This document shows, one piece after another, positions 47,005 to 51,067 of a stretch of 64,000 nucleotides of DNA (the first letter of the stretch is position 1; every line of letters begins with the position of its first letter). The translations under genes and the position numbers were made by a program. Location of the stretch: the NCBI RefSeq assembly GCF_009831455.1, contig NZ_WOWO01000003.1, positions 62,001-126,000 on the forward strand, written 5' to 3'. Source of the DNA: Salinirussus salinus (lineage in GTDB: Archaea; Halobacteriota; Halobacteria; Halobacteriales; Haloarculaceae). The notes under the pieces were generated by a model. That model made no database searches and was not told the DNA's origin. It saw only the letters and a list, made by a program, of their open reading frames with translations.

Positions 47005-47850
47005 ATGCGACGCACAACCCTGCTCGCGGTCGCCGTCGTCGCCGCCCTGGTCGCGGTCCCCGCCGTGGGGGCAGCGACGGCCGGCAGCGGGCCGGTGGCC
47101 CAGGCCGACAACGCGACGAACACGACGAACGCGACCAGCCCCGGCGAGCGCCTCTCCGGCGTCGTCGGCGTCCAGGGGGCCGAACTCGAGGGGGAGGTCG
47201 AGACGCGGAGCTTCGGCCTGCAGGTCGCCCGTGCCGCCTCCGAGGATGCCCGCGCTGCGGTCGTCCGGGAGCAACTCGGAAACGTCCAGCAACAGGTCGA
47301 AACTGTCCAACGCCGGAAGGCTGCCCTCGAGGAAGCCCGGGCGAACGGCTCGATGAGCGAGGGCGAGTTCCGGGCCCGCGTGAGCGAACTCGCGGTCCGC
47401 GGGGGGACGGCTGCGGAGCTGGCCAACCGGACCAGCGAGACCGCCGGCAGCCTCCCGACCGCAGTGCTCGAGGCGAACGGCGTGAACGTCACGGCGATCC
47501 AGCAGCTACGGCAGGCGGCCGGGAACCTGACCGGGCCCGAAGTCGCGGCGATCGCCCGGTCGATCGCCGGACCGAGCGTCGGCAGACCGGCCGAGGCCCC
47601 GCGCGGTCCGCCGGGAGCGCCGGGGGTGCCCGGGGACGTGACCGAGACACCCGACGGGAACGCCACCGGAACGCCCGACGGCAACGCGACCGTGGCGTCG
47701 GACGGCAACGCGACCGAGGGAAGCGACGGCGACACCACCGCTGGGCCCGGCGGGCAGGGAAGCGACGGGGACGGCGCGTCCGGCAGCCGGGACGGCACCG
47801 CGACGGCGAACGGGACGGACACCCGGGGCGGCGAGCGCTCCGGGACGTAG
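47005..47850 (+). CDS. Secreted Asn/Thr-rich protein of unknown function
   Basis: This 281-residue protein has a Sec-type signal peptide (RRTTLLAVAVVAALVAVPAVG, first 24 residues or so). The mature part starts with N-x-T repeats (NATNTTNATS), has a helical central domain (about 60-185; coiled-coil-like QQQVETVQRRKAALEEARANG), then a low-complexity tail with repeats of PDGNAT/SDGNAT (about 205-240). Multiple N-x-T/S sites suggest surface N-glycosylation. There is no C-terminal membrane anchor. It resembles other haloarchaeal exported proteins of unknown role. It is paired with the membrane HTH gene upstream. Confidence 0.78.
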   Translation: MRRTTLLAVAVVAALVAVPAVGAATAGSGPVAQADNATNTTNATSPGERLSGVVGVQGAELEGEVETRSFGLQVARAASEDARAAVVREQLGNVQQQVETVQRRKAALEEARANGSMSEGEFRARVSELAVRGGTAAELANRTSETAGSLPTAVLEANGVNVTAIQQLRQAAGNLTGPEVAAIARSIAGPSVGRPAEAPRGPPGAPGVPGDVTETPDGNATGTPDGNATVASDGNATEGSDGDTTAGPGGQGSDGDGASGSRDGTATANGTDTRGGERSGT

Positions 47851-47908
47851 CGTCACGGCGGTCGAGCCGGAGCCTGCGAACTCCTCACAGGCCGGCTGAT
47901 TCTCGGAA

Positions 47909-47917
47909 GATATTTGA
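47909..47917 (+). promoter_or_regulatory. TATA-like element upstream of argG leader
   Basis: GATATTTGA is centred about 30 nt before the upstream ORF ATG at 47943 and about 240 nt before the argG ATG. A start near 47939 would leave the upstream ORF nearly leaderless and argG with a leader of about 215 nt. Confidence 0.5.
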
Positions 47918-47942
47918 AGACACACCGGAAAGGAGTAGCCAC

Positions 47943-48023
47943 ATGACGCCGACCCGCGCGTCCGGTCACGCCCGACCCGCCAGCGGGTCCGCCCTTCTCC
48001 GAGTGCGACGACCGGGCCGGTAA
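47943..48023 (+). CDS. Putative arginine-rich leader peptide of argG
   Basis: This is a short frame of 26 codons plus TAA between the promoter and argG. Six residues are Arg, four of the six encoded by CGA, which seems little used in the neighbouring arg genes, and the last seven codons hold four of them (LLRVRRPGR end). The stop codon lies in the loop of a 6-bp hairpin (CGGGCC/GGCCCG, 48013-48018/48024-48029). A second hairpin GACCCGC/GCGGGTC (47974-47980/47983-47989) lies inside the frame. Translation is not proven, and in GC-rich DNA Arg-rich frames occur by chance. Confidence 0.4.
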   Translation: MTPTRASGHARPASGSALLRVRRPGR

Positions 48024-48154
48024 GGCCCGCTTCATCCACTCCCCCAGTCCCGAACCGTCCGACCGCCGCCCACCGTCGGGTCCTTGGGCGGTCAGCCGTT
48101 CAGTCGACACCCGACACCGGAATCACACACCACACCCCAAAACACACCGCACAC
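47943..48154 (+). promoter_or_regulatory. argG: Structured 5' leader of argG
   Basis: This region of the 304-bp gap before argG contains, in order: the Arg-rich frame with two hairpins, a third stem CCGCCCA/TGGGCGG (48066-48072/48085-48091), and a 34-nt tract (48121-48154) with a single G just before the argG ATG. GACCCGC at 47951-47957 can pair with the same GCGGGTC as the 47974 copy, and CGGGTC at 48077-48082 offers a further partner, so alternative folds are possible. No Shine-Dalgarno sequence is seen. 47851-47908 holds nothing I can name. Confidence 0.5.
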
Positions 48155-49375
48155 ATGCCAGAGGAACCATCCCGCGTCGCGCTCGCCTTCTCGGGCGGGC
48201 TCGACACCACAGTCTGTGTACCGCTGCTCGAAGAGGAGTACGGCTACGACGAGGTGGTCGGCGTCACCGTCGACGTCGGCCAGCCCCGCAAGGAGTTCGA
48301 CGAGGCCGAGGAGACCGCCGCCGCGCTCGACGTCGAGCACTACGTCGTCGACGCCCGCGAGGCGTTCGCCGACCTGTGCCTGCGGTCGGTGAAGGCAAAC
48401 GCCACCTACCAGGGCTACCCCCTGGGGACGGCGCTCGCTCGCCCGGTCATCGCGGGAGCGATCCTCGACGTCGCCCTCGGGGAGGGGTGTGACGCCGTCG
48501 CCCACGGCTGCACCGGGAAGGGCAACGACCAGCTCCGGTTCGAGGCCGTCTGGCGGGATTCCCCGCTCGATGTGGTCGCGCCCGTCCGCGAACTCGGCCT
48601 GACCCGCGACTGGGAGCAGGAGTACGCCGCCGAGCGTGGCCTGCCCGTCGAGGGCGGCAGCGAGGGCCGCTACAGCATCGACACCAACCTCTGGAGCCGG
48701 TCGATCGAGGGCTCGGAGCTGGAGGACCCCGCGACCATCCCCGAGGACGACATCTACGACTGGACCCAGACCCCCGGGGGGAAGGCGGCCGAACTCGTCG
48801 AGGTCGAGTTCGCCGAGGGCGAGCCGGTCGCGCTGGATGGCGAGGGGGTCGAACCGGTCGAACTGATCGAGACGCTCAACGAGCGGGCCGGTGCCCACGG
48901 CGTCGGCCGGACCGACATGATGGAAGACCGGATGCTCGGGCTCAAGGTACGGGAAAACTACGAACACCCCGCAGCGACCGTCCTCCTGACGGCCCACGAG
49001 GCCCTCGAACAGCTCGTGCTCACCCAGGAGGAGCGCCAGTTCAAACAGCAGGTCGACGCCCAGTGGGCCCAGAAGGGGTACCAGGGGCTCGTGGATGCGC
49101 CGCTCGTGGATGCGCTGGAGGGCTTTATCGACACGACCAACGAGCGCGTCACCGGCACCGTCACCGTGAAACTGGAGGGCGGGCACTGCCGGCCGGTCGC
49201 CCGCGAGAGCGAGTACGCGGTGTACTCGGAGTCGGCGGCCTCCTTCGACGAGGAGGACGTCACCGGCGGCATCACCCAGGAGGACGCCACCGGCGTCGCC
49301 AAGTACCACGGCTTCCAGTCGCGGCTGGCCAACCGCGCCATCGAGAACGCGCGCGGCACGGACGGGGAGGAGTGA
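48155..49375 (+). CDS. argG: Argininosuccinate synthase
   Basis: This 406-residue enzyme joins citrulline and aspartate with ATP. The PP-loop AFSGGLDTTVCVPLL opens the protein near residue 10. GCTGKGNDQLRFE and YSIDTNLWSRSIEG are the citrulline/aspartate-site blocks, and GRTDMMEDRMLGLKVRENYEHPA is also conserved (quoted in part: MEDRMLGLKVRENYEHPA). It is the first gene of a two-gene unit with argH, one base apart. It has a long structured leader without a Shine-Dalgarno sequence. Confidence 0.96.
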   Translation: MPEEPSRVALAFSGGLDTTVCVPLLEEEYGYDEVVGVTVDVGQPRKEFDEAEETAAALDVEHYVVDAREAFADLCLRSVKANATYQGYPLGTALARPVIAGAILDVALGEGCDAVAHGCTGKGNDQLRFEAVWRDSPLDVVAPVRELGLTRDWEQEYAAERGLPVEGGSEGRYSIDTNLWSRSIEGSELEDPATIPEDDIYDWTQTPGGKAAELVEVEFAEGEPVALDGEGVEPVELIETLNERAGAHGVGRTDMMEDRMLGLKVRENYEHPAATVLLTAHEALEQLVLTQEERQFKQQVDAQWAQKGYQGLVDAPLVDALEGFIDTTNERVTGTVTVKLEGGHCRPVARESEYAVYSESAASFDEEDVTGGITQEDATGVAKYHGFQSRLANRAIENARGTDGEE

Positions 49376-49376
49376 G

Positions 49377-50873
49377 ATGACGGGGGAAGGTGCGGACGAC
49401 GACGGACCCGGGGCGGACGGCGAGAGCGTCGTCCGCCGGGACCGCTTCTCCGGTGGCCCCGCCCGTGCCTTCCTCTCCTCACTTGCCGACGACGAGCGCA
49501 TCTTCGCCGCCGACCTCGCCGTGGACCGGGCCCACGTCGTGATGCTCGCCGAACAGGGGATCATCGAGGGAGAGGACGCCGGGGCCATCCTGTCGGCGCT
49601 CGCCGAAATCGGGGACGCAGGTCACGCCGCGTTGCCCGACGGCGAGGACGTCCACGAGGCCATCGAGACGGCCGTCATCGACCGTGTCGGGCCCGCGGGT
49701 GGGCGGATGCACACCGCCCGCTCGCGCAACGACGAGGTGGCCGCCTGCATCCGCTACCGGCTGCGCGAGGACCTGCTCAAGACGCTTTCGACGCTGGTGG
49801 AGGCCCGCGAGCAGCTGCTGGAGACCGCCGGCGGACACACGGAAACGGTGATGCCCGGCTACACCCACCTCCAGCCGGCCCAGCCCACCACCGTCGCCCA
49901 CTGGCTGTGCTCCTACGAGGAGGCACTGGCGCGAGACACCGCACGGCTGGTCGACGCCTACGACCGGGTCAACCGGTCGCCGCTGGGCGCGGCGGCCTTC
50001 GCCGGGACGAGCTTCGACGTCGACCGCGAGCGGACCGCCGGGCTGCTGGGATTCGACGGGCTGGTCGAGAACGCCACCGACGCGGTCTCCGCCCGCGATT
50101 TCCTCGTCGAGACGACGGCGGGGATGGCCGGGCTGGCGACGACGCTGTCGGGGCTTGCAGAGGACCTGGTGACGATGGCCAGCAAGGGTCACGTCGCACT
50201 GGACGACGACTACGCCTCGACCTCCTCCATCATGCCCCAGAAGAAAAACCCCGACACCCTCGAACTGGTGCGGGGCCGGACCGGCGACGCCGTGGCGGGG
50301 CTACAGGGCCTGCTGACGACGCTGAAGGGGCTGCCCCGCGCGTACAACCGCGACCTCCAGCGGGCCGGCCGGCACGCCTGGGACGTGATCGACAGCACGA
50401 CCGGGAGCGTCGAGGTGGCCGTCGGCGCCGTCGCGACCGCCGAGTGGCCGGCCGACACGCTGGAGGAAGCGGCCGGCGAGGGTTTCTCGACGGCGACGGG
50501 CGCGGCGGACCTCCTGGCCCAGGCTGGCGTCCCCTTCCGGACGGCCCACGAGGTCGTCGCGCGGGCCGCCGAGGGGATGGCCCCCGGGGAGTCGGCGCCC
50601 GGCATCGACGCGCTGGACGCGGCGGGCGAGGCGGTGATGGGCGAGCCGGTGACCGGCCGCGTCGACCGCGAGGCGCTGGCCGGGGCGCTCGACCCCGCCG
50701 CGAACGTCGCGATGCGTGACTCGCGGGGCGGACCCGCCCCCGAGGCCGTCGAGGCCCACCTGGAGCGGGCCCGTGAGGGGCTCGCCGAGGACCGCGAGGC
50801 CCTCGGGCGGCGCCGCGAACGCGTCGAGGACGCAGGCGAGCAACTGAACGCGGAGGTGGCGACGTATGTCTGA
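49377..50873 (+). CDS. argH: Argininosuccinate lyase
   Basis: This 498-residue enzyme splits argininosuccinate into arginine and fumarate. The fumarase/aspartase superfamily signature STSSIMPQKKNPD carries the catalytic Ser in its flexible loop. MPGYTHLQPAQPTTVAHW holds the conserved His, and HTARSRNDEVA the substrate site. The N-terminal 30 residues are acidic. It starts at the ATG at 49377, one base after the argG stop. Confidence 0.96.
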   Translation: MTGEGADDDGPGADGESVVRRDRFSGGPARAFLSSLADDERIFAADLAVDRAHVVMLAEQGIIEGEDAGAILSALAEIGDAGHAALPDGEDVHEAIETAVIDRVGPAGGRMHTARSRNDEVAACIRYRLREDLLKTLSTLVEAREQLLETAGGHTETVMPGYTHLQPAQPTTVAHWLCSYEEALARDTARLVDAYDRVNRSPLGAAAFAGTSFDVDRERTAGLLGFDGLVENATDAVSARDFLVETTAGMAGLATTLSGLAEDLVTMASKGHVALDDDYASTSSIMPQKKNPDTLELVRGRTGDAVAGLQGLLTTLKGLPRAYNRDLQRAGRHAWDVIDSTTGSVEVAVGAVATAEWPADTLEEAAGEGFSTATGAADLLAQAGVPFRTAHEVVARAAEGMAPGESAPGIDALDAAGEAVMGEPVTGRVDREALAGALDPAANVAMRDSRGGPAPEAVEAHLERAREGLAEDREALGRRRERVEDAGEQLNAEVATYV

Positions 50874-50976
50874 GACAGGCAGCGTCGCCGGGCCGGCCGC
50901 CCAACAGGGTCAGCCCCGCCCGCAGCCGCGACCGCCGCTGCCGCCGTCCCCTCCCCGGGGACGAATTACCAGAAAT

Positions 50977-50986
50977 AGTATATACT
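50977..50986. promoter_or_regulatory. 10-bp palindrome upstream of lysW
   Basis: AGTATATACT is a perfect palindrome in the 228-bp space between argH and lysW, about 90 nt before the TATA box at 51068. It could be an operator or a second TATA element. The same spacer also has a direct repeat of CCGTCAG (near 51008 and 51018) and a TCAGA/TCTGA inverted repeat. Confidence 0.4.
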
Positions 50987-51067
50987 GAAACGGAAGAGGC
51001 TACGGAGGCCGTCAGGCACCGTCAGAGTGGCGTCTGAGTCACCAATTCTTTCTGATAGGTTCGAAGG

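Follow-up and report, generated by a model that had tools for sequence, protein, structure and literature searches.

The argG leader locus

The window, the whole 64 000-nt stretch of the Salinirussus salinus genome analysed here, encodes argG, whose identity is supported by an NCBIfam profile match, and argH as the next gene of the operon, and a short open reading frame (ORF) lies upstream of argG (Table 1). The ORF encodes MTPTRASGHARPASGSALLRVRRPGR in 26 codons, six of which specify Arg, with CGA used for four of them (codons 11, 20, 22 and 23). An earlier note on this DNA had described a TATA-like element predicting a start at the ATG of this frame, six Arg codons including four CGA clustered toward its end, a 6-bp hairpin whose loop takes in the stop codon, and a location ahead of the arginine gene argG. 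All of these were found as described: ATATTT starts ∼32 nt upstream of the ATG, the hairpin reads CGGGCC-GGTAA-GGCCCG and its loop contains the stop codon, and the gene that follows is argG. From the position of the TATA-like box, the transcription start is expected at or adjoining the leader ATG. The gap between the leader stop codon and the argG start is 131 nt in the window and 70–198 nt in relatives, and an obvious Shine–Dalgarno motif was not found before argG in the window sequence.

At the other end of the operon, a short ORF (ATGTCTGA) overlaps the argH stop codon, both in the window (50866–50988) and in further loci (L370–L391). A hairpin such as CCCCGCGAGGGG sits between argH and argW/lysW, the latter having its own promoter, and CGA codons of the spacer ORF precede the hairpin in some genomes of one family (f9). 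From its sequence, this spacer element may be a terminator or a further leader.

Table 1. Features of the argG leader and its target genes in the window
Feature	Position	Strand	Basis
TATA-like element ATATTTG, leader promoter	47910..47916	+	∼32 nt before leader ATG; same-family leaders alike
Leader-peptide ORF, predicted leaderless, 26 codons, MTPTRASGHARPASGSALLRVRRPGR and stop	47943..48023	+	Layout conserved in same and other families
Hairpin A 5' arm, GACCCGC	47951..47957	+	Pairing and covariation
Second GACCCGC, local competitor for hairpin A 3' arm, not conserved	47974..47980	+	Missing in closest relative (L003)
Hairpin A 3' arm, GCGGGTC	47983..47989	+	Pairing and covariation
Critical Arg codons CGA-GTG-CGA-CGA, directly 5' of hairpin B	48000..48011	+	Codon counts, 146 leaders
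Hairpin B 5' arm, CGGGCC	48013..48018	+	Hairpin B in 90/94 non-redundant leaders
Stop codon TAA of leader ORF, in hairpin B loop	48021..48023	+	Sequence
Hairpin B 3' arm, GGCCCG	48024..48029	+	Pairs with 48013–48018
G-free, pyrimidine-rich tract after hairpin B	48030..48046	+	Base counts, 144 leaders
Predicted H-type pseudoknot stem 1 (GCCGCCCA/TGGGCGGT), loop with GTCGGGT	48065..48092	+	Predicted, compensatory variants
Predicted pseudoknot stem 2 partner, ACCCGAC	48109..48115	+	Pairs with stem 1 loop
argG, argininosuccinate synthase, target gene	48155..49375	+	NCBIfam profile, 651 bits
argH, argininosuccinate lyase, next operon gene	49377..50873	+	Profile match

Conservation of the leader across haloarchaea

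Haloarchaeal families are referred to by the working labels f1–f11, f1 being the family of the window. argG was present in 143 of 146 f1 genomes, and 107 of 110 argG upstream regions from this family contained an ORF of 22–57 codons with an Arg-rich end, in which the distance from the start of a TATA-like box to the ATG was 30–36 nt (mode 33). Of the other three, one ran into a contig end, one probably starts at GTG and one was an expanded copy. The same layout was found before argG in f2, f3, f4, f5, f7, f9, f10 and f11, with GTG starts and other variants occurring in these other families. In total, the leader was found in 9 of the 11 families examined, with the ORF 70–200 nt upstream of argG and a TATA-like leader promoter box in nearly all families. 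It was absent in the single genome read from each of f6 and f8, and before one paralogous argG copy (L158). The peptide sequence was poorly conserved outside the Arg run. The conservation of an Arg-rich frame and its hairpins before argG in other haloarchaea, which had been proposed as a check, was thus observed in nearly all of those sampled. In one locus (L108), the leader region was enlarged, with several inverted-repeat units that look like hairpin B.

We then searched the GTDB genome collection for an exact stop-hairpin pattern and obtained at least 120 matches, where most of those listed were chance matches in bacteria. Among the matches listed, all 21 haloarchaeal exact matches that were checked lay directly before argG, and the carriers were Haloarcula, Halosimplex, Halovenus, Haloglomus, Halomarina, Halogranum, Haloprofundus, Halobaculum, Halovivax, Natronoglomus and other Halobacteriales; two matches listed from Thermoplasmata were not before argG. 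In the window's own genome, a covariance model scored a single strong copy at 69.8 bits and its next match at 21.5 bits, and its strong matches were confined to the order. Weak matches in f28 and one in G199 were chance-like on inspection, and another weak match, in G161, was the argH–argW spacer.

Rare arginine codons at the end of the leader

CGA accounted for 45 of 1217 Arg codons (3.7%) in 45 genes of the window and for 11 of 546 (2.0%) in 30 argG genes. Within the last nine codons of the leaders, the share rose to 305 of 500 Arg codons (61%) in the same family and 133 of 189 (70%) in the other families, a 17- to 30-fold enrichment, while CGA made up 17–19% of Arg codons elsewhere in the leader. 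Counted back from the start of hairpin B in 146 leaders, codon −1 specified Arg in 99%, −2 in 79%, −3 in 69%, −4 in 68% and −5 in 20% of the leaders, with CGA alone at codon −1 in 86%. Given the general size of its footprint, a ribosome holding one of these codons in its A site would be expected to extend over the 5' arm of hairpin B.

Hairpins A and B

Hairpin A pairs the first codons with the middle of the leader ORF. Its arms vary between families while the pairing is kept (GGACCC/GGGTCC, GGACTC/GAGTCC, GGACGC/GCGTCC and CAGACGCC/GGCGTCTG). Since RNAalifold, run on the gapped alignment of leaders, predicted no shared base pairs, the tests were run on a structure named by the analyst, against shuffled and slid controls and by an arm swap. 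With 94 leaders aligned by MAFFT, covariation scored 0.178, compared with 0.124 (sd 0.007) for shuffled and 0.05–0.10 for slid controls. The alignment-free arm swap gave a pairing of 21.0 for own arms against 16.05 (sd 0.35) for permuted arms, the maximum of 5000 permutations being 17.4. Hairpin B, its loop holding the stop codon, was found in 90 of 94 leaders, and in a few leaders the stop codon lay beyond it (e.g. L081, L092 and L103).

The earlier note had also suggested that two copies of GACCCGC compete for a single GCGGGTC in alternative folds. Both copies and the single partner are present in the sequence, and the long-range pair, hairpin A, is conserved, whereas the other alternative pairings, including that of the second copy, are not. 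Hairpins A and B showed no obvious mutual competition, and no conserved antiterminator excluding hairpin B was found; a ribosome occluding hairpin B would by itself be enough.

The same layout at ilvB and valS

A covariance-model match in G176 proved to be a leader of ilvB and pointed the analysis to this gene. A leader of the same layout preceded ilvB in 21 of 24 genomes (L340–L363), the window's own genome included, where the leader (G000:C2) encodes MTLEAGPAVRRAASLAGIVGAL with its stop-hairpin core at 644424–644442 and the ilvB match at 642558–644213 on the minus strand. ilvB leaders end in IVGA(x) or nearly so before the stop codon, and ATT or ATC followed by GTA adjoins GGGGC..stop..GCCCC. 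In the leader core, GTA was used in 20 of 20 and ATT in 14 of 20 cases, the genome use of these codons being 3.0% and 2.5%, respectively.

A scanner requiring a TATA-placed ATG, a short ORF and a stop codon in a hairpin loop identified leaders in 141 of 155 argG, 21 of 24 ilvB, 0 of 24 hisG and 0 of 24 trpC upstream regions, where the rates at argG and ilvB are descriptive because the criteria were set after both had been seen, and hisG, trpC and shuffled sequences serve as controls. The shuffles gave 0–1.3% overall and 0.3% for argG dinucleotide shuffles.

An exact ilvB pattern, GTAGGGGC-n-TAGCCCC, was carried by 167 of the order's 293 genomes, and a reversed control pattern was much rarer; its further sites revealed the leaders at valS. 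Among 17 fetched sites, 10 were located before valS, 6 before ilvB, and 1 was chance-like. The valS leaders (L477, L478, L479, L480, L482, L484, L486, L488, L489 and L493) carried GTA-GTA, GTA-TTC-GTA or GTA-CGT-GTA at the hairpin, thus Val without Ile; the identity of valS as a valine–tRNA ligase gene was checked by profile for 2 of the 10 proteins. The cluster of end-product codons was fixed relative to the hairpin in all three cases, with Arg at argG, Ile/Val at ilvB and Val at valS.

Other short ORFs were seen near leuA genes. At leuA1, located before ilvB, a TATA-placed leaderless ATG is out of frame with the conserved N-terminus RIEFFQGTLDSTSEI and opens an ORF of ∼21–28 codons that overlaps the gene start, in 13 of 13 genomes viewed (L442, L446, L449, L451, L455–L458, L465–L468 and L470). 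Judging from its position, this offset ATG may reflect a programmed frameshift, an overlapping leader or an unusual start. Upstream of a second leuA/citramalate-synthase paralogue (L443–L445, L447, L448, L450, L452–L454, L459–L464, L469 and L471), short ORFs fall into two conserved types, one ending in TEDRGSRHTAAGREILR before the stop with highly conserved DNA, and the other encoding MTRDRFIRGPPRN, in which TTT ATT leads into a GC hairpin and which is possibly an Ile leader.

From hairpin B to argG

In 144 leaders, G made up no more than 1–3% of bases at positions 2–16 after the stem of hairpin B. A run of U, the usual haloarchaeal termination signal, was not found after hairpin B: the longest T run within 55 nt was at most 3 in 139 of 155 leaders and never exceeded 5. 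Further downstream, the predicted pseudoknot was detected in 29 of 54 f1 leaders versus 10 of 94 shuffles, with compensatory variants, and in 5 of 40 leaders outside f1, which is the background level. A second TATA-like box was located 20–37 nt before argG in 26 of 26 cases in f2, f4, f5, f7 and f10, compared with 2 of 129 in f1, f3, f9 and f11.

In f2, f4, f5 and f7 (e.g. L124, L145 and L138), conserved elements resembling CTATAGGCATCTCTG and CGGTTAGCGTCCGCTCT lie before the second argG promoter, and similar GTTAG motifs precede argW/lysW; the elements are possible regulator binding sites. Separately, a motif GTATCGTCCGCGAAC or a near variant occurs between leader and gene at argG in f11 (L121, L123, L131 and L165) and at ilvB in f9 (L336, genome G176).

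Proposed mechanism and alternative explanations

The strongest argument for sensing of aminoacyl-tRNA through the ribosome is that the codons at the hairpin match the downstream gene in three cases. We consider it very probable that the region 47910–48154 acts as an amino-acid-sensing leader-peptide attenuator, and control of argG by codon sensing appears equally probable from these sequence features. The idea of the earlier note that a ribosome-read Arg-codon leader precedes argG in an archaeon is supported by the conserved frame, the terminal Arg codons, the hairpins and the cognate leaders at ilvB and valS.

The mechanism we propose is as follows. When Arg-tRNA, chiefly the CGA-reading isoacceptor, is well charged, the ribosome would clear the CGA run, terminate and leave, upon which hairpin B would refold with the G-free tract and expression of argG–argH would fall. 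Under arginine shortage, a stall on CGA at codons −4 to −1 would bring the leading edge of the ribosome over the 5' arm of hairpin B; the hairpin would then be unable to form, and argG would be expressed. Termination would take place at or after hairpin B, either intrinsically or via aCPSF1/FttA.

Premature termination as the output of the leader is, on these features, an evenly balanced proposition. It is favoured by the retention of the leader also in families with a separate argG promoter downstream of it, by the variable distance between leader and argG, which exceeds the range of 30–40 nt over which translational coupling works in Haloferax volcanii (PMC12548453), and by the ability of a hairpin to direct termination in that species, where 59% termination was reported for structure S12 (PMC7237163). 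Given the missing T-stretch, termination would need a factor (aCPSF1/FttA) or a new signal.

The main competing explanation is translational attenuation, in which a stall at the Arg codons refolds the 5' UTR including the pseudoknot and thereby frees or blocks the argG start while transcription is unaffected. We regard this explanation as possible but rather doubtful. The pseudoknot between leader and argG is found in f1, which lacks the second promoter, with its 3' partner often 9–40 nt before the ATG, and argG has no obvious Shine–Dalgarno motif, both of which are in line with translational attenuation; for the window's own family, translational control through this f1-only pseudoknot is possible. 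On the other hand, the pseudoknot is at background outside f1 whereas the leader is universal, the leader is followed by a separate argG promoter in f2, f4, f5, f7 and f10, and the gap between leader stop and argG throughout its range is longer than the reported coupling distance. Termination–reinitiation would require the leader stop within ∼40 nt of the argG start, and the distance in the window is 131 nt. The earlier note had named the leader a possible translational attenuator, but nothing was found that shows a translational output, and the second promoter past the leader in several families speaks for transcription control, which we somewhat favour over control of argG translation.

Arrest by the nascent peptide, in which an Arg-rich C terminus (RRRRPGR and stop) stalls the ribosome at the stop codon and senses free arginine or another effector instead of codon starvation, in the manner of TnaC or the fungal arginine attenuator peptide, is improbable. 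While RPG(R) is frequent at the C terminus and the position of the stop codon in hairpin B is well kept, what follows the Arg run differs between leaders (RPGR, RALC, RALF, GLLAQ and AVRPE) as set by the stem sequence, the synonymous choice of rare codons (CGA, GTA and ATT) has no role in peptide sensing, and the ilvB and valS leaders end differently yet match their own amino acids. Still less credible is a conserved gene for a small protein or sRNA that merely adjoins argG, since the element, despite its own promoter and ORF, encodes a poorly conserved peptide except for the Arg run, is always directly before argG and has cognate analogues at ilvB and valS. A chance ORF beside an ordinary hairpin in GC-rich sequence, where short ORFs are common, is refuted by the conservation in nine families, the low rate in shuffles, the covariation and the enrichment of rare codons.

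Regarding the proposed attenuation by codon sensing as a whole, there is about an even chance that it represents a general, convergent haloarchaeal system covering at least Arg at argG, Ile/Val at ilvB and Val at valS, with a leaderless ORF, a stop-codon hairpin and a G-free tract acting via archaeal termination. Leader-peptide attenuation is a textbook form of bacterial regulation that needs a ribosome working near RNA polymerase. Its conserved counterpart at argG, ilvB and valS would imply that transcription–translation coupling is used for regulation in archaea and, if true, would extend ribosome-mediated attenuation beyond Bacteria in a distinct architecture. These leaders would provide haloarchaea with a direct amino-acid sensor, and the question is open to testing in the genetically tractable Haloarcula hispanica and H. 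volcanii. In the open-access literature, we found no description of archaeal leader-peptide attenuation, of argG or ilvB leaders in haloarchaea or of equivalents among H. volcanii uORFs, an absence that is no proof of novelty.

Comparison with known systems

The argG leader shares with bacterial ribosome-mediated attenuators (trpL, hisL, ilv/leu and Corynebacterium ilvBNC) a short same-strand ORF before a biosynthetic gene, end-product codons adjoining a hairpin of which a stalled ribosome could occlude one arm, and conserved hairpins with compensatory changes. Unlike these attenuators, it is archaeal, its ORF is expected to be leaderless, its stop codon is inside the hairpin loop, it has no U-tract, no mutually exclusive antiterminator was found, and its codons are very rare; the haloarchaeal leader is also present at valS, an aminoacyl-tRNA synthetase gene. 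Because the U-tract is lacking, no antiterminator was found and the element is known from sequence alone, we did not file it as a member of the bacterial type.

In Rho-dependent regulation of tna by TnaC, and as proposed for the argG leader, use of a G-poor, C-rich tract 3' of the stop codon depends on where the ribosome stands on reaching the end of a short ORF. The argG leader differs in having a run of cognate codons in place of an arrest peptide and in its proposed opposite logic, with expression on starvation. To our knowledge, archaea are without Rho, and a Rho-like role of aCPSF1/FttA at the argG leader is a conjecture.

The fungal arginine attenuator peptide, encoded by the arg-2/CPA1 uORF, likewise involves an upstream ORF that controls an arginine-synthesis gene. 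It senses arginine by peptide sequence, however, whereas haloarchaea conserve the codons and the RNA structure. Rfam, including its T-box and riboswitch families, gave no match in 47600–48400 at E < 5 and none in the whole window at gathering thresholds. Haloarchaeal leaders are comparable to T-box leaders in that biosynthetic and aminoacyl-tRNA synthetase genes would both be under amino-acid-specific control by charging state, but in the haloarchaeal leaders the specificity is carried by the ORF.
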